Part shown: piece by piece, positions 32,644-40,305 of the stretch
How the letters are laid out: each line of letters begins with the position of its first letter
Position numbering within the stretch: the stretch's first letter is position 1
Assembly: GCA_013619105.1 (NCBI GenBank)
Contig: JABXKU010000008.1
Location: forward strand, 1 to 49,958
Length of the DNA stretch: 49,958 nucleotides
Direction of reading: 5' to 3'
From: Desulfuromonadales bacterium
GTDB lineage: Bacteria > Desulfobacterota > Desulfuromonadia > Desulfuromonadales > Syntrophotaleaceae
The notes under the pieces: generated by a model
Database searches by the model: none
Told to the model about the DNA's origin: nothing
Seen by the model: the letters and a program-made list of their open reading frames with translations, nothing else
Position numbers and translations under genes: made by a program

Positions 32644-34182
32644 TTAAAGGCCGCCAGCGGTACGTTCCAACACACTGACGAGCTTGTTCAAAGCATTAAT
32701 ATAGGCCTTAGCACTAGCGACGATTATGTCGAGATGCGCTCCTTGACCAATCACCTCGCGACCATCGAGTTCTAGCCGTACAGTGCATTCACCCTGGGCA
32801 TCGGTGCCGCCGGTAATGGCACCAACAGTAAAGTCGAGCAATTTAGCCTGGCTTTTGGTCAGCTTTTTAATAGCCTTAAAGGTGGCATCGACGGGTCCGC
32901 CTCCCATCAGGGCGGTTTTTTTGACTTTGCCCTCAACCTCCATGGCCACAGTGGCTGTCGGCGCGGCAAAGGATCCGGAGGCGATACTCATCTCAAGCAA
33001 CTTGTAGCGCTCTTCGATACGGATTATTTCATCGGCGACGATGGCGTCGAGATCCTCGTCGTAGATATCCTTCTTCTTGTCGGCCAGAGCCTTAAAACGG
33101 ACAAAGGCCTTATTGAGGTCTTCCTTGTTCAGCTCGTAGCCAAGTTCTGTCAGCCGCAGGCCGAAAGCATGACGACCCGAATGCTTGCCGAGCACCAGCT
33201 TGTTCTTAGTCAAGCCGATAGATTCGGGAGTCATGATCTCGTAGGTCGATTTATCCATCAACATACCGTGCTGGTGGATGCCCGCCTCATGGGCAAAGGC
33301 ATTGGCACCGACAATGGCCTTATTGGGTTGCACCACGATACCAGTGATAGTCGACAACAGCTTGCTGGTAGAATATATGTACTCTGTAACCACCTCGGTA
33401 CGGAAGGGCATGATGTCATGGCGGGTGCGCAGGGCCATAACGATCTCCTCCAGGGAGCAGTTACCCGCCCGCTCGCCGATACCGTTGATGGTGCACTCAA
33501 CCTGTTCGGCGCCGGCCTGTACTGCGGCCAGAGAGTTAGCTACTGCCAGACCAAGGTCGTTATGACAATGCACCGAAAGGATTGCCTGGTCGACATTGGG
33601 CACATGATCCTTGAGATACTTGATGATATCGAAGTACTCGGAAGGAATGGTATAGCCAACAGTATCGGGAATGTTCACCACTTTGGCACCGGCAGCAATG
33701 ACCTCCTCCACCACCTGGGCGAGAAAGGGCAAACGGGTCCTAACCGCGTCTTCGGCGGAAAATTCCACATTAGGTGTATAACCGGCGGCTCGCTGCACAG
33801 CGGCCACGGCGGTGTCTATCACCTGCTGTTCACTCATCTTGAGTTTGTATTTCAGGTGAATGTCACTAGTGGCGATGAAAGTATGAATACGGGCCCGTTC
33901 CCCGGCAGGCTTGAGGGCCTTCCAGGCACAGTCGATATCCAGGTTGCTGGCACGGCTCAGTCCGGCGATTTGACTGTGGCGAGTCGCTTTTGCGACCCGT
34001 CTGACGGCCTCAAAATCCCCCTCGGAAGCGATAGGAAAACCGGCTTCGATGACATCGACATTAAGCTTTTCAAGCTGCGCAGCGATACGCAGCTTCTCAT
34101 CGATGTTCATACTAGCGCCGGGAGATTGTTCACCGTCACGCAAGGTGGTATCAAAAATCTTGATGGTTTTAACGTTATCCAT
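32644..34182 (-). CDS. leuA: 2-isopropylmalate synthase
   Basis: First committed step of leucine synthesis: condenses acetyl-CoA with 2-oxoisovalerate. 512 residues. The TIM-barrel half has IFDTTLRDGEQSPGASM near residue 8, the metal-binding SVHCHNDLGLAVANS near 205, and GIGERAGNCSLEE. The C-terminal half is the leucine-binding regulatory domain. ATG 34182 follows GGAGG; nine upstream codons are not supported. Preceded by a T-box leader, so expression should rise when tRNA-Leu is uncharged, on top of feedback inhibition. Confidence 0.96.
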   Translation of the reverse strand: MDNVKTIKIFDTTLRDGEQSPGASMNIDEKLRIAAQLEKLNVDVIEAGFPIASEGDFEAVRRVAKATRHSQIAGLSRASNLDIDCAWKALKPAGERARIHTFIATSDIHLKYKLKMSEQQVIDTAVAAVQRAAGYTPNVEFSAEDAVRTRLPFLAQVVEEVIAAGAKVVNIPDTVGYTIPSEYFDIIKYLKDHVPNVDQAILSVHCHNDLGLAVANSLAAVQAGAEQVECTINGIGERAGNCSLEEIVMALRTRHDIMPFRTEVVTEYIYSTSKLLSTITGIVVQPNKAIVGANAFAHEAGIHQHGMLMDKSTYEIMTPESIGLTKNKLVLGKHSGRHAFGLRLTELGYELNKEDLNKAFVRFKALADKKKDIYDEDLDAIVADEIIRIEERYKLLEMSIASGSFAAPTATVAMEVEGKVKKTALMGGGPVDATFKAIKKLTKSQAKLLDFTVGAITGGTDAQGECTVRLELDGREVIGQGAHLDIIVASAKAYINALNKLVSVLERTAGGL

Positions 34183-34364
34183 GTGACCTCCAGAAGATCT
34201 GTTGTGCAACTGCTTCTACGGTGCGGGGAGTCCTGTGTCGAATAGCTTGGTAAATCCGGTGTATTGGGTGCTGGCTGGAAACTCCCAGCTCACTCAGGTC
34301 CGATTCCACAAGACCACCTCCTTTCAGTATCCTGGTTAAGCACGCTCCACTAGGTGCAACAGAC

Positions 34365-34625
34365 AAAAAAAAGCACCCACCCATAAAACAGGGGCGAGAG
34401 CTTCAGCTTCGCGGTACCACCCTGATTCAGCCGCCGTAGCGGCCCTTCCTTGACCCTTTACGCGGGCTAACGTCCTTGGCTAACGGCCTTTTTCAAAGCA
34501 TCCGCTTCACCAAGGCGGCTCCGAGGCGAGTTCAACCTTCCCTGTACCGGCTTGCAGCAACCGCCGGCTCTCTACAACAGGGGACAGGCCTACTACTCCT
34601 CTTCAACGCCTTTCCATTGAGCTGA
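34365..34625 (-). promoter_or_regulatory. T-box leader (tRNA-Leu sensing) of leuA operon
   Basis: On the minus strand the leader has the exact T-box core AGGGTGGTACCGCG (34410-34423). Upstream are AG-bulge-like AGAGAGCCGGCGG and a specifier region GAACTCGCC, in which CTC is a leucine codon. Downstream is an attenuator: GCTCTCGCCCC pairs with GGGTGGGTGC (one mismatch, two G-T pairs), followed by eight T (34365-34372). T-boxes before leuA in this bacterial group are established knowledge. Uncharged tRNA-Leu should stabilise the antiterminator. Confidence 0.93.
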
Positions 34626-34736: not shown

Positions 34737-35504
34737 CTACCCGTCTCCCCGCCTTCGGCGTAGGCGGCGCAGCAGGGGCAGACGAAATAGATAGCTAGCA
34801 GGACCCGACAGCAAATAGATGCCAAACAATGCAAAAATCATGATCTGTGGTTCGGCCACCACCACGATGACCACAAAGATCAACAACACCAGAAAACCGA
34901 AGGGCTGGCGCTTGACCAGTTCGGGGTCCTTGAAGGAGTAGTAGCGAACATTACTGACCATAAGCAAAGCCAGCACATAGATGAGAATCAGTACGGACAC
35001 CTTGCGGATACTACCCGAGCCGCCCAAATGATAAAAGAGCAGCACGCAGCTGGCCACCATGCTCGCTGAAGCAGGAATCGGCAGGCCGAGAAAGCGCTTC
35101 GACTCAACGGTGTCAACTTGGACATTGAACCGGGCCAGGCGCAGGGCGCCACAGACCACATAAAGAAAAGCTGCCAACCAGCCAAGCTTACCAAAAGGTT
35201 TAAGGGCCCAGGAATACATAAGCAACCCTGGCGCGACACCAAACGCAACCAAATCGGCCAGCGAGTCATACTCAACACCAAAGCGACTTGTGGTGCCGGT
35301 CAGTCGAGCGACCTTGCCATCCAGTACATCAAAAATTGCCGAGATGAGGATGAACCAAGCAGCCACATAGTAGCCACCATTCATGGTGGAGATAATGCCG
35401 TAAAAGCCAGCAAACAGAGTGCCAGTGGTAAAGAGGTTTGGCAGCAGGTAGACACCCTTACGCAAGCTCTCCCGACGATCTAAAGAGGACGATGATTCGC
35501 TCAT
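34737..35504 (-). CDS. pssA: CDP-diacylglycerol-serine O-phosphatidyltransferase
   Basis: Makes phosphatidylserine in the inner membrane. 255 residues with about six transmembrane helices. The CDP-alcohol phosphatidyltransferase signature D-G-x2-A-R-x8-G-x3-D-x3-D is read in DVLDGKVARLTG and FGVEYDSLADLVAFG. A basic C-terminal tail (RRLRRRRGDG) ends the protein. Its ATG overlaps the psd stop codon by 4 bp, so translation of the two phosphatidylethanolamine enzymes is coupled. Confidence 0.95.
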   Translation of the reverse strand: MSESSSSLDRRESLRKGVYLLPNLFTTGTLFAGFYGIISTMNGGYYVAAWFILISAIFDVLDGKVARLTGTTSRFGVEYDSLADLVAFGVAPGLLMYSWALKPFGKLGWLAAFLYVVCGALRLARFNVQVDTVESKRFLGLPIPASASMVASCVLLFYHLGGSGSIRKVSVLILIYVLALLMVSNVRYYSFKDPELVKRQPFGFLVLLIFVVIVVVAEPQIMIFALFGIYLLSGPASYLFRLPLLRRLRRRRGDG

Positions 35505-36145
35505 TTGAGGTAGCCCAAAATGGTTTCTCCAGCTTTGGCACGATCACCGACGTTAATCAGCACATCAGAATCGGCAGGAAAGTAAACATCAACCCGGGAG
35601 CCGAAGCGTATCAGACCGCAGCGCATGCCCCGCTTGAGCAAATCGCCGATTTGCGGATAGACCACAATCCGTCGCGCAATCAGACCGGCGATCTGTACAA
35701 ACAACAGTCGCTTACCTGAAGGGTGTTCGACCAGTGTACCGGCCTGCTCGTTCTGCAAACTAGCCTTATCGAGGGCAGCGTTAAAGAACTCACCCTTGTT
35801 GTAGAACTTATCGACCACCTTGCCGTCGCAGGGCACCCGGTTGACATGCACATCGAATACCGACATGAAGATACTAACCTTGATCGCCTCGCTCTTGAAG
35901 TAGCGTTCCTCAGTCACCGGACCTACGAACACCACCTTGCCGTCCGCCGGCGACACAACCGCCGACTCCTCAGCCTCTACATGACGCTCAGGATTGCGAA
36001 AGAAATAGACGGTAAACAGGGTCAAAGCCAAGGCCAGAACAGTTAGCGTTCCCCAACTGAGCAGCGCAAAGACCAGAGTGACAAAGGCGAAAAGCGCGAT
36101 AAATGGGTAGCCTTCAGAGGCGACCGGTTGATGCTGGTTTTTCAT
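35501..36145 (-). CDS. psd: Phosphatidylserine decarboxylase (short type)
   Basis: Converts phosphatidylserine to phosphatidylethanolamine. 214 residues, the short archaeal-like class. Two N-terminal hydrophobic helices precede SPADGKVVFVGPV and SIFMSVFDVHVNRVPCDGKV. The self-cleavage site that yields the pyruvoyl group is the Gly-Ser in RFGSRVDVYFP. ATG 36145 follows GAGGA. It lies just after the ilvC remnant and overlaps pssA. Confidence 0.95.
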   Translation of the reverse strand: MKNQHQPVASEGYPFIALFAFVTLVFALLSWGTLTVLALALTLFTVYFFRNPERHVEAEESAVVSPADGKVVFVGPVTEERYFKSEAIKVSIFMSVFDVHVNRVPCDGKVVDKFYNKGEFFNAALDKASLQNEQAGTLVEHPSGKRLLFVQIAGLIARRIVVYPQIGDLLKRGMRCGLIRFGSRVDVYFPADSDVLINVGDRAKAGETILGYLK

Positions 36146-36216
36146 GGTAATATCCTCGACTGAACCGCGCCGATGAGTCGTAAGGGTTTTCCTAACGCTC
36201 TAGCCCGGCGGGTTAA

Positions 36217-36324
36217 TTAAAGTAGCTGTTTATCTGACTTGTCGTCACCAAGCCAGTTCATAATACCACGCAGACGACCACCAACTTACTCGACAAGATG
36301 CTCGGCACTGACGCGAGCTAGCGG
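36217..36324 (-). pseudogene. ilvC: Remnant of ketol-acid reductoisomerase (C-terminus only)
   Basis: About 35 codons remain between ilvN and psd. On the minus strand they read AEHLVE, a stop, then VGGRLRGIMNWL and a short tail to TAA at 36217. IlvC proteins end with this pattern (HxIE-K-VGxxLRxMMxWL). The in-frame TAA at 36286-36288 stands where lysine AAA or AAG is usual. Nothing of the N-terminal Rossmann part is found before ilvN. In relatives the order ilvB-ilvN-ilvC-psd-pssA-leuA is common, so this is very likely the deleted native copy. Confidence 0.85.
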
Positions 36325-36367
36325 TCATAACCGGCAACCCTGCCTGCCTAGTCCACCTGAACAGTCG

Positions 36368-36844
36368 TTACTGACCTCGGCCTATGACTACAGGACCGGA
36401 GCGCACCAATTCCTTGATGCCCATGGGTTTGAGCAGATCAATGACCGCGTCGAGTTTGGTCGGCGCGCCCGTTACCTCCAGGGTATAGGAACGCGGCGTT
36501 ACATCGACCACTTTGGCGCGAAAGATATCGACAATGCGCAAAACCTCGGCGCGAGTCTCCTCTTCAGCAGCCACCTTGATCAAGGCCATTTCCCGTTCGA
36601 CATATTCCTGACCGGTAAAATCCGTCACCTTGATGGTATCGATCAACTTATTAAGTTGTTTGTTGATCTGTTCCAGAATCCGATCGTCGCCGCGGGTGAC
36701 GATGGTCATGCGGGAAACACTCGGATCGAGGGTCGGCGCCACGGATAGACTCTCGATATTAAAGCCACGTCCGGAAAAAAGCCCCGCCACTCGGGTCAGG
36801 ACTCCAAACTCGTTTTCAACCAAAACCGAAATGGTATGTTTCAT
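36368..36844 (-). CDS. ilvN: Acetolactate synthase small (regulatory) subunit
   Basis: 158 residues with an N-terminal ACT domain (HTISVLVENEFGVLTRVAGL, FSGRGFNIESLSV) and the C-terminal ACT-like half (EVLRIVDIFRAKVVDV). It binds valine for feedback inhibition and stimulates the large subunit. ATG 36844 is the standard start with GGAG ten bases upstream; an ATG six codons earlier is unlikely. It lies 38 bp after ilvB. Confidence 0.96.
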   Translation of the reverse strand: MKHTISVLVENEFGVLTRVAGLFSGRGFNIESLSVAPTLDPSVSRMTIVTRGDDRILEQINKQLNKLIDTIKVTDFTGQEYVEREMALIKVAAEEETRAEVLRIVDIFRAKVVDVTPRSYTLEVTGAPTKLDAVIDLLKPMGIKELVRSGPVVIGRGQ

Positions 36845-36882
36845 GGTTTCAAAGCACTCCATAGATTTGCGTAGGCCACCGG

Positions 36883-38580
36883 CTAGGAAGCCAGCACCAT
36901 CTCGTTGATTGCCGCTCCGGCCGGCACCATGGGCATAACGTTTTCTTCCCGGTCGACTTTGAACTCCATGAGCACCGGACCAGGGGTTGCCAAGGCCTTG
37001 CGAATAACCTCACCGACCTCCTCTGGACGAGTGGCACGGAGACCGGTGGCGCCATAGGCTTCAGCCAGTTTGACAAAGTCGATGGGCAGTTCCATGGTCG
37101 TCTCGCTGTAGCGTCGATCAAAGAACATCTCCTGCCACTGGCGCACCATACCAAGGTAATTATTGTTGAGAATAGCGATCTTCACCGGCAGCTTGTACTG
37201 CACCAGAGTCGCCAGTTCTTGAGAATTCATCTGAAAGGAGCCGTCACCGGAGATGTCGATGACCTGCCGCTCAGGAAAGGCCGCCTGGGCACCGACGGCA
37301 GCTGGTAAACCATAGCCCATGGTTCCCAGCCCACCGGAGGTGAGGAAGGTCCGGGGCTGACTGAAAGAAAAGAACTGTGCGGTCCACATCTGATGCTGAC
37401 CGACCTCGGTGGTGATGATGGCATCATCGGCGGTTAACTCCCGCAGCTGCTCAATAACATATTGGGGCTTGATGATGGTATCACTGGCCTGATAGCCCAT
37501 GGGATGTCTGCTCTTCCAATCGGCGATCTCCGTCCGCCAGCCTGCGGAGCCATCGACCATGGCCGCTAACTCCTCGGGCCTCTCCCCTAGAGTGACGCTA
37601 AGCTTTTGCAGCACATCCTTAAGATCGCCCACAATGGGCAAGTCGACCCGCACGTTCTTTTTGATAGAAGTGGGATCGATGTCGATGTGGATGATCTTGG
37701 CATGAGGAGCAAAAGAGGCGATTTTACCGGTCACCCGGTCATCGAACCGGGCACCCACCGCTATGAGCAGATCAGAGTTAGTCACCGCCATGTTGGCATA
37801 ATAGGTACCGTGCATGCCAAGCATACCCAGGGCTTGAGGATGGCGTTGGGGAAAAGAAGCCATACCCATCAGAGTGGTGGTCACCGGCGCCTGAGTCATC
37901 TCGGCAAAGGCCAGCAGATCCTCCGAGGCATCGGCTCCAGTTGCACCGCCACCGACATAAAGCACCGGCTTGCGAGACGCTAGAATCATGCGAGCAGCCT
38001 TCTCCAACTGCCGCGCATTGCCGCTGTAGGTCGGTTTGTAGCCACGCAATTCGACCTTTTCAGGGTACTCAAACTTGGCACTGGCCACCTGAATATCCTT
38101 GGGCAGATCGATCAAAACCGGACCAGGCCGTCCAGTGCGGGCAATGTAAAAGGCCTGTTTAACAATACGAGACAGGTCCTTGATGTCCTGTACCAGATAA
38201 TTATGCTTAGTAATAGAGCGGGTGATACCGATAATGTCGACTTCTTGAAAGGCGTCGTTGCCAATCAGTGGCGTCGGCACCTGACCGGTGATAATCACCA
38301 TCGGTACCGAGTCCATATAAGCGGTGGCGATACCGGTAACGGTGTTAGTTGCACCTGGCCCGCTAGTGGCGATGGCGACTCCGACCTTGCCCGTGGTGCG
38401 GGCATAGCCATCGGCGGCATGCACCGCAGCCTGCTCGTGACGAGTCAAAATATGGTGGATGGGATAATCCGCGATATCGTGATAAATGTTGATGACCGTA
38501 CCGCCGGGGTAGCCGAAAACAGTATCGACCCCTTCCTGCTGCAGGCATTCCAACAAAATCTGTGATCCGGTTTTTTTCAC
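36883..38580 (-). CDS. ilvB: Acetolactate synthase large subunit
   Basis: ThDP enzyme making acetolactate and acetohydroxybutyrate. 565 residues. Motifs: [16 protein letters not shown] near residue 20, the catalytic glutamate in [36 protein letters not shown], and the ThDP/Mg site [15 protein letters not shown] to [14 protein letters not shown]. The start codon is GTG with GGAGG upstream. It is the second gene of the ilvD-ilvB-ilvN run. Confidence 0.97.
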
Positions 38581-38634: not shown

Positions 38635-40305
38635 TCAGTCTGCCGTACACACGGCACCGGTATTGGCCGACGTTACCACAGCAGCGTAACGGGACAGCCA
38701 ACCTTTCTTAATCTTCGGCTCTGGACGCACCCACTTATCCCGGCGATCAGCAAGCACTGCATCATCCACCAGAACCTCAAGGCGCCTCTGGGGGATATTG
38801 AGACGGATCTTATCACCGTCCTCAACCAGGGCGATGGGCCCGCCGACCATGGCTTCAGGGGAAATATGTCCAATACAAGGACCACGGGTGCCTCCGGAAA
38901 AGCGACCGTCGGTGACCAGTGCCACACTGTCCCCAAGACCGAGACCCATCAAGGTAGCCGTCGGGGCAAGCATTTCACGCATACCAGGTCCACCTTTGGG
39001 ACCTTCGTAGCGAATGACTACCACATCACCAGCAACAACCTGACCACTCATCAACGCTTCCATGGCCTGTTCTTCCGAATTGAAGCAGCGGGCGACCCCC
39101 TCAAACTCCATCATCTTATCCGAGACTCCGGACTGCTTAACCACCGCGCCGTCCGGGGCCAGATTACCACTAAGAATGGCAATCCCACCTTCCACGCGCA
39201 CCGGATCGCTCATAGGACGAATAACTTCTTCGTCGACTGGGGGCACCCCGGAGACAATCTCCTTGACTGATGCGCCGCTCAGGGTCGGATTGTCCAGCAC
39301 CAGATCGCCTAGTTGGGAAAGGACTCCGGGCACGCCACCGGCCGCATCGAGATCCTCCATAAAATGCTTGCCGCCAGGATTCATCGAAGCAATCTGAGGT
39401 GTGGTACGGCTCAATTCGTCAAATAATTCAAGGGGTACATCGACTTCCGCTTCATGGGCAATGGAGAGCAGATGCAGTACCGTATTACTTGAACCACCGA
39501 GGGCCAGGTCGACACGGATGGCATTTTCAAAGGCCGCACGAGTCAAAATCTTACGGGGGGTGATGTCCTGCTTGACCAGATCGACAATTCGCTCGCCAGA
39601 GGCAAAGGCCAGACGCCGTTTATGAGAAGAAACTGCCAGTGCTGTACCACAGCCAACCAGACTCATCCCCAGGGTTTCGGTGAGAATAGCCATGGTGTTC
39701 GCGGTAAACAAGCCCTGACAGGATCCGGCTCCAGGACAAGCCTTATCTTCGCACTGGGTCAGTTCTTCTTCATTGATCTCACCGGCCTTGAAGCGAGCCA
39801 TAGCCTCAAAGGTGTCGGTAACAAAAGAATAGCGTCGCCCATCACGGCCAGAACCGGTCAGCATGGGGCCGGCGGTAACCACAATACAAGGAACGTCAAG
39901 ACGGGCTGCGGCCATAAGCATGCCGGGGGTGATCTTGTCACAGTTAGTAAGCAGCACCAGGCCATCGAGACGATGGGCCTCAGTGATGGATTCCACCATA
40001 TCGGCGATCAGTTCGCGGGTAGCCAGGGAATAGTGCATGCCCTTATGTCCCATGGCGATGCCATCACAGACGCCCGGAATGCCGAACAGAAAGGAATAGC
40101 CTCCGCCGGTATGGACACCCTTTTCAATAAAACGTTCCAGATCGCGCATGCCGATATGGCCGGGAATCAGGTCGGTAAAGGAGGTGGCGATTCCGATCAG
40201 TGGCTTGCCCATTTCTGAGCGGGGCAGACCTGTACCGAGCAGCAGGGCCCGATGAGGAGCGCGTTCAAAACCTTGGGTGATTGCATCGCTACGCTTGCTT
40301 GTCAT
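38635..40305 (-). CDS. ilvD: Dihydroxy-acid dehydratase
   Basis: Fourth common step of isoleucine and valine synthesis; an iron-sulfur enzyme. 556 residues. Motifs: [19 protein letters not shown] with a cluster cysteine, [16 protein letters not shown] with another, [13 protein letters not shown], and [20 protein letters not shown] near the C-terminus. First gene of the ilv run, 54 bp before ilvB. A promoter-like TTGAAC-16-TATCTG (40328-40355) lies upstream. Confidence 0.97.

Follow-up and report, generated by a model that had tools for sequence, protein, structure and literature searches.

A scar of class I ilvC between ilvN and psd in a Desulfuromonadales genome and the very probable displacement of the operon gene by a class II ilvY–ilvC module

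The ilv operon in the window analysed here (the whole stretch of 49,958 nucleotides of contig JABXKU010000008.1) contains a decayed piece of the native gene for class I ketol-acid reductoisomerase (KARI) in the gap between ilvN and psd. We consider it very likely that this piece is the scar of an operon copy of ilvC displaced by a self-regulated class II ilvY–ilvC module, and that the module was gained before the operon copy was lost. Judged from its sequence, the segment is a pseudogene: what remains of the native class I ilvC is a non-coding scar and no longer an enzyme gene. G000 denotes the genome carrying the window, and G001, G002, G003 and G004 are other genomes of its genus. The features of the gap are as follows.

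36229..36361, minus strand: class I ilvC remnant (codons ~292–336), a pseudogene with a 2-nt deletion between 36309 and 36308, an internal TAA and the original stop gone; from tblastn with G004 IlvC, alignment, and a profile compared with shuffles
36286..36288, minus strand: in-frame TAA within the remnant, common to G002 and absent in G001
36361..36370, minus strand: deletion junction, ilvN stop (36370–36368), ~6 nt, then ilvC codon ~290; from the alignment of G000, G001 and G002

The minus-strand frame between ilvN and psd reads AEHLVE, stop, VGGRLRGIMNWLGDDKSDKQLL, stop, as an earlier sequence-only reading of the window had described, and its final TAA lies at 36219–36217. Tblastn with the class I IlvC of G004 matched the gap in two frames, namely codons 308–336 at 36315–36229 (75% identity) and codons 292–309 at 36361–36308 (66% identity, E 6e-09). 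In the alignment, 2 nt are missing between 36309 and 36308 in G000 and G002, and this separates the two matching frames. The remnant is about 45 codons long, with one frameshift and one internal stop. The sequence-only reading had placed it at 36217–36324, as 35 codons with an in-frame stop. The stop stands, but the upstream limit has to be moved, since the upstream match in another frame puts the start of the remnant ~37 nt upstream of 36324, at 36361; the frameshift had been missed. The native stop of ilvC no longer exists, so that reading continues through three further codons (QLL) at the end of the frame. The best class I profile score of the gap is 20.7 bits (profile built from 68 proteins, G004's included), and the maximum of 100 dinucleotide-preserving shuffles was 3.5 bits, with 0/100 reaching 20.7. 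The proposed similarity to the C-terminal end of KARI is thus confirmed, the segment aligning with codons 292–336 of the G004 gene, and class I homology is present at the ilvN–psd position. It also holds that no N-terminal part is left: the junction runs from ~6 nt past the ilvN stop to codon ~290, codons ~1–290 are gone, and the remnant has no complete frame and no cofactor or catalytic domains. A coding role for the tail was rejected, as there is a stop in all three genomes that have only the tail and the 2-nt deletion in G000 and G002.

An intact ilvC that was collapsed or misassembled at this site could in principle look the same, and G000 is a draft of 205 contigs. The site, however, lies in the interior of a contig, the identical junction is found in G001 and G002, G002 has the same stop and the same 2-nt deletion, and G000 has no KARI_C match apart from the two repeats within its class II gene. 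Because the junction is common to the G001 and G002 assemblies, we reject assembly or sequencing error, to which we give almost no credence.

Different states of the class I gene are found within the genus. Specifically, G004 has a full class I ilvC of 336 aa at the ilvN–psd site (L144:1610-2617), G003 retains codons 1–48 and 265–336 with stops, and G000, G001 and G002 have the tail only, with one common junction and derived bases beside it. All five genomes also carry a class II KARI. The G001 tail has neither the 2-nt deletion nor the TAA, but a different stop. The site in G000 is 895 nt shorter than in G004. The suggestion that ilvC was lost from this place by deletion and decayed afterwards is well borne out by the longer remnant with both ends in G003 and the intact gene in G004. 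The loss in G003 may be independent of that in G000, G001 and G002 or an earlier step of it, because the gene trees (rpoB, ilvB, ilvN, psd and class II) disagree on the placement of G003 and G004; G001 was left out of the rpoB tree, as its rpoB match looks foreign (~47% DNA identity) and its bin is 8% contaminated.

The tail is 77.7% identical between G000 and G004 over 121 nt, and for the same pair codon positions 1+2 of ilvB, ilvN and psd are 96–97% identical and their fourfold sites 60–79%. In the G003 pairs the tail is 74.4% identical to G000 and 84.6% to G004, with 41–62% at fourfold sites of the three genes, and is still under the identity of their codon positions 1+2. These values fit a gene that was constrained until recently and was lost recently, and some constraint on the tail may remain.

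The 80-bp spacer between the stump and psd (window 36146-36228) occurs in two types, one in G000, G002 and G003 and the other in G001 and G004, which do not follow the gene trees (L143–L146). G000 and G003 are 91% identical in it, more than in psd (81%), and G000 and G001 only 60%, although their flanking genes are close. A short recombination tract is the likely source of this pattern.

The other genes of the operon, psd and leuA all exceed the cut-offs of their models.

36368..36862, minus strand: ilvN, acetolactate synthase small subunit, intact (NF008864, 239.7 bits, cut-off 119)
36883..38580, minus strand: ilvB, acetolactate synthase large subunit, intact (TIGR00118, 852.4 bits, cut-off 538.35)
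38635..40305, minus strand: ilvD, dihydroxy-acid dehydratase, intact (TIGR00110, 755.7 bits, cut-off 618.15)
35501..36145, minus strand: psd, phosphatidylserine decarboxylase, start at 36145 (NF003678, 284.1 bits, cut-off 225)
32644..34179, minus strand: leuA, 2-isopropylmalate synthase, intact, with an alternative frame start at 34209 (TIGR00973, 741.7 bits, cut-off 598.7)

The sequence-only reading took every other ilv and leu gene of the window to be intact, and this is confirmed for ilvB, ilvN, ilvD, leuA, leuB (488.5 bits, cut-off 393) and leuC; leuD is an open frame of 176 aa that no model matched at the strict limit of 1e-60. Citramalate synthase is present as well (787.3 bits, cut-off 450). 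Upstream of leuA, a T-box leader is found at window 34387-34615 on the minus strand (RF00230, 120.8 bits, gathering 93); PMC2700814 and PMC2494555 already describe a leuA T-box in Geobacter and Pelobacter carbinolicus.

A single KARI gene is present in G000 (3.32 Mb, 99.4% complete). It is an intact class II gene of 490 aa at G000:C67:1005-2477 (minus strand), on a contig other than that of the window. Its single frame holds two PF01450 stretches with PF07991 and scores 898.3 bits with NF003557 (cut-off 713), and in the genome search the two repeats of this gene gave the only two KARI_C matches. The protein is 71.0% identical to an enterobacterial IlvC, and its best solved relative is E. coli IlvC (1YRL), aligned over query residues 4–489. 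The metal and catalytic residues of the E. coli enzyme, which we take to be D217, E221, E389, E393 and S414, were the reference for reading the alignment to 1YRL by eye; the motifs KSDLMGE, ESLHE and ISDTAEYG are present in the G000 protein. Class II IlvC would thus carry out the KARI reaction in G000. A plain loss that left the strain auxotrophic for branched-chain amino acids is therefore hardly credible. The class I gene is dead and the assignment of ilvE is weak (the best match in G000 is 133.7 bits, under the curated cut-off of 245.55, which 8/14 control genomes pass), but the intact class II KARI, ilvB, ilvN, ilvD and leuA over their cut-offs, leuB and citramalate synthase all speak against it. 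The sequence-only reading had left a choice between a second ilvC elsewhere and a need for branched-chain amino acids, and had favoured replacement over auxotrophy; the class II gene supports replacement.

The surroundings of the class II gene point to a module with its own regulation. In G000, ilvY is divergent from class II ilvC (NF008722, 370.2 bits, cut-off 246; the model was run in G000 only). By tblastn, a divergent ilvY homologue accompanies class II ilvC in 35/41 loci, which is 33/39 distinct genomes. Six of the 41 loci were without a match, four with full flanks (G048, G039, G044 and G030) and two truncated (G056 and G067), and ilvY is absent in the 9-kb stretch read for G039 and G044. 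An O2-like motif lies upstream of ilvC in G039 and G048 and there is none in G044 and G030. The region shared by ilvY and ilvC in G000 contains GTTGC-N6-TGCAA, 17 nt, and then ATCAATTTACGCAA. The second, O2-like element was found in 33/33 Desulfuromonadales ilvY–ilvC regions, exactly in 27 and with 1–2 mismatches in 6; the Citrobacter copy differs at one position. The first, O1-like element was recognised in 22/33 regions and in Citrobacter, at a spacing of 17 nt every time. It is important to note that the motif was defined from the alignment made here and compared with one Citrobacter region, so that these are putative operators. A search of G000 for the motif core, tolerating a single mismatch, gave one site, and the reversed core used as a control gave none. 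According to PMC6483228, E. coli IlvY turns on ilvC when the KARI substrates acetolactate and acetohydroxybutyrate are present. By analogy, IlvY would respond to the KARI substrates in G000 too.

The leader of this gene also carries a 164-bp repeat, which is MITE-like with imperfect terminal inverted repeats by eye (L156:2520-2683, on G000:C67). In G000 it separates the O2 motif from the start codon of the sole KARI gene. G003 has it at the corresponding position, where G001, G002 and G004 lack it. The repeat has 29 matches in G000 and 20–29 in each of the other four genomes of the genus, partial matches included.

Among relatives, the operon position of class I ilvC is common, as the sequence-only reading had stated. 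The 37 sites surveyed comprise 21 with ilvN–ilvC(class I)–psd, one with ilvN–ilvC running to the contig end, four remnants by tblastn and 11 without a tblastn match. In the 80 named records, which overlap the 37-site set in some genomes, 55 have ilvN–ilvC–psd, 4 have ilvN–ilvC to the contig end, 15 have ilvN–psd without ilvC, 3 end at most 60 bp from ilvN, and 3 have neither neighbour. In these relatives psd is the immediate downstream neighbour of ilvC. A class II match was obtained for every one of the 15 named genomes that lack class I at the ilvN–psd site. At least two of them are also among the 58 genomes tallied below, G060 and G061 agreeing with G013 and G011 in contig and position; the frame matched in G058 is broken by a stop, and G067 is cut by a contig end.

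Remnants were searched for in 30 ilvN–psd gaps under 700 bp from 28 distinct genomes, each profile score being compared with 100 shuffles. Six gaps score more than 10 bits with 0/100 shuffles reaching the score (L143, L043, L146, L033, L145 and L053). We do not claim L108 as a remnant at 0.5 bits, though 0/100 shuffles reach it. In the other 23 gaps no remnant was found, between 2 and 98 of the 100 shuffles attaining the score; in genus g3 the same comparison found none in the six gaps read (L148, L150 and L152–L155). Two of the scars are in other families. G022 has a C-terminal class I tail between ilvN and psd (24.7 bits) and a class II gene of the second clade; G056 has such a tail at 12.5 bits and class II fragments 83–93% identical to the G000 gene. 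Including the studied genus, three lineages have scars, and the replacement in G056 is less secure than that in G022 because its class II gene is split over contig ends and its bin is 7% contaminated.

All six detected remnants retain the C-terminal end, and the N-terminal end is retained only in G003. Together with the spacer that is better conserved than psd between G000 and G003, this could mean that the tail was kept for a promoter or another signal serving psd–pssA. We regard this as unlikely. Stops interrupt the tail in each of G000, G001 and G002, with the frameshift in addition in two of these, 24/30 class II sites have no claimed tail, and the consensus scan found no promoter-like site in 36146–36370 (in the 6.4-kb region there were 2, against a shuffle mean of 4.1).

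The order of gain and loss can be approached through genomes that hold both enzymes. In a hand tally of 58 genomes, 30 have class I only, 22 class II only, 4 both (G004, G007, G009 and G049) and 2 neither, the last two being 84% and 78% complete. Class I is intact in G004, G007 and G009; the class II gene of G004 runs off the contig end at 436/490 residues. The same radical-SAM genes adjoin class II and ilvY in G000, G003, G004, G007 and G006. Because these five genomes have one neighbourhood and class I is intact in G004, G007 and G009, the family probably possessed class II with ilvY at a time when its class I gene was intact. Against the reverse course, in which class I was lost first and class II acquired afterwards as a rescue, stand the four genomes with both and the class II genes of G004 and G007, which are at the same locus as those of G000, G003 and G006. 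In addition, a KARI is present in 44/44 relatives with completeness of 90% or more and contamination of no more than 5%. This opposite order is very improbable, even though 24/30 class II gaps have no claimed remnant and the order is unreadable there.

Two further arrangements were noticed. In G049 the two KARI classes are ~7 kb apart on one contig (L238, G049:C46:29500-43000), and G027 has two full-length class II matches (G027:C107 and G027:C8), both 87% identical to the gene of G000.

As to its origin, 118 genomes of at least 90% completeness, sampled evenly across the phylum, include 6 with class II at E<=1e-80 (92 without a match are not itemised): G000, G019 and four of one other family. 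Two of the six are from Desulfuromonadales. The four of the other family have no O2 motif in the stretch read, and an ilvY homologue adjoins in 1/4. The class II sequences of the order form two clades with 100% support each, ~75% identical to each other and joined at 88% support when the outgroups are one enterobacterial sequence and four from the phylum. For the two class II trees, of 38 and 41 rows, the duplicates G060 and G061 and the split G056 were omitted; G058 dropped out because of the stop in its matched frame, and G067, a fragment, was left out of the second tree. Because the two clades group together at 88%, one old acquisition of class II is possible. Class II was presumably acquired horizontally. 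Class II ilvC is also carried on 60 records of gammaproteobacterial plasmids, 38 of them predicted to be conjugative, and a plasmid locus predicted to be non-mobilizable (L237) has ilvY and ilvA near it.

The following course of events would account for these observations. The family ancestor would already have held a second, class II KARI beside the LysR activator IlvY and operator-like sites. Since E. coli IlvY switches ilvC on with substrate build-up, such a module would be independent of chromosomal position and could supply KARI from any place. The class I copy in the operon would then have become redundant, and redundancy was presumably the reason for its loss. A deletion of ~0.9 kb in the ancestor of G000, G001 and G002 would have removed the gene from just past ilvN to codon ~290, and the leftover tail would have been decaying since, with class II IlvC performing the reaction.

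What goes beyond the sequence-only reading is that the replacement is by another KARI class, that it comes with its own regulator IlvY, and that it appears to recur across the order. A wider statement is offered tentatively, and we hold it to be somewhat short of an even chance: in Desulfuromonadales, operon-embedded class I KARI would have been displaced repeatedly by a self-contained, substrate-induced ilvY–ilvC module of two class II clades, with gain before loss, the module's own sensor freeing KARI from operon control and C-terminal scars between ilvN and psd marking and counting the losses.

The case makes readable how an enzyme class can be swapped without interruption of the pathway: a regulated module gained, coexistence, the old copy gutted and its stump fading. 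For annotators it is a warning that an ilv operon without ilvC does not equal auxotrophy. With some species holding both copies and others one, the genus would also make it possible to test directly why the stand-alone enzyme prevails.

Most likely this is ordinary gene displacement, an event of a familiar type whose intermediates are unusually clear here. In PMC8985424, class II KARI is reported in a variant of a species that has its own class I KARI, and horizontal transfer is raised for the strain; among open-licence papers, judged by titles and the starts of abstracts, we found none on such a KARI swap in Desulfuromonadales. As in other displacements by an acquired equivalent, the resident gene is lost at its ancestral operon site, the equivalent lies elsewhere, and there are genomes with both copies. 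It differs in that the incomer is of the other KARI class and comes with a regulator and operator-like sites of its own, that stages are visible within one genus, and that similar scars occur in two other families. Compared with the class I KARI of the Desulfuromonadales ilvBN–ilvC–psd operon, intact in G004, the remnant has the same ilvN–psd position and homologous C-terminal residues, but only ~45 decayed codons are left in G000. The new locus resembles the E. coli ilvY–ilvC module in its class II IlvC and divergent LysR regulator IlvY, and the Citrobacter ilvY–ilvC region in its two motif elements with the same 17-nt spacing, whereas its host belongs to Desulfuromonadales and, in G000 and G003, the ilvC leader carries the 164-bp repeat.
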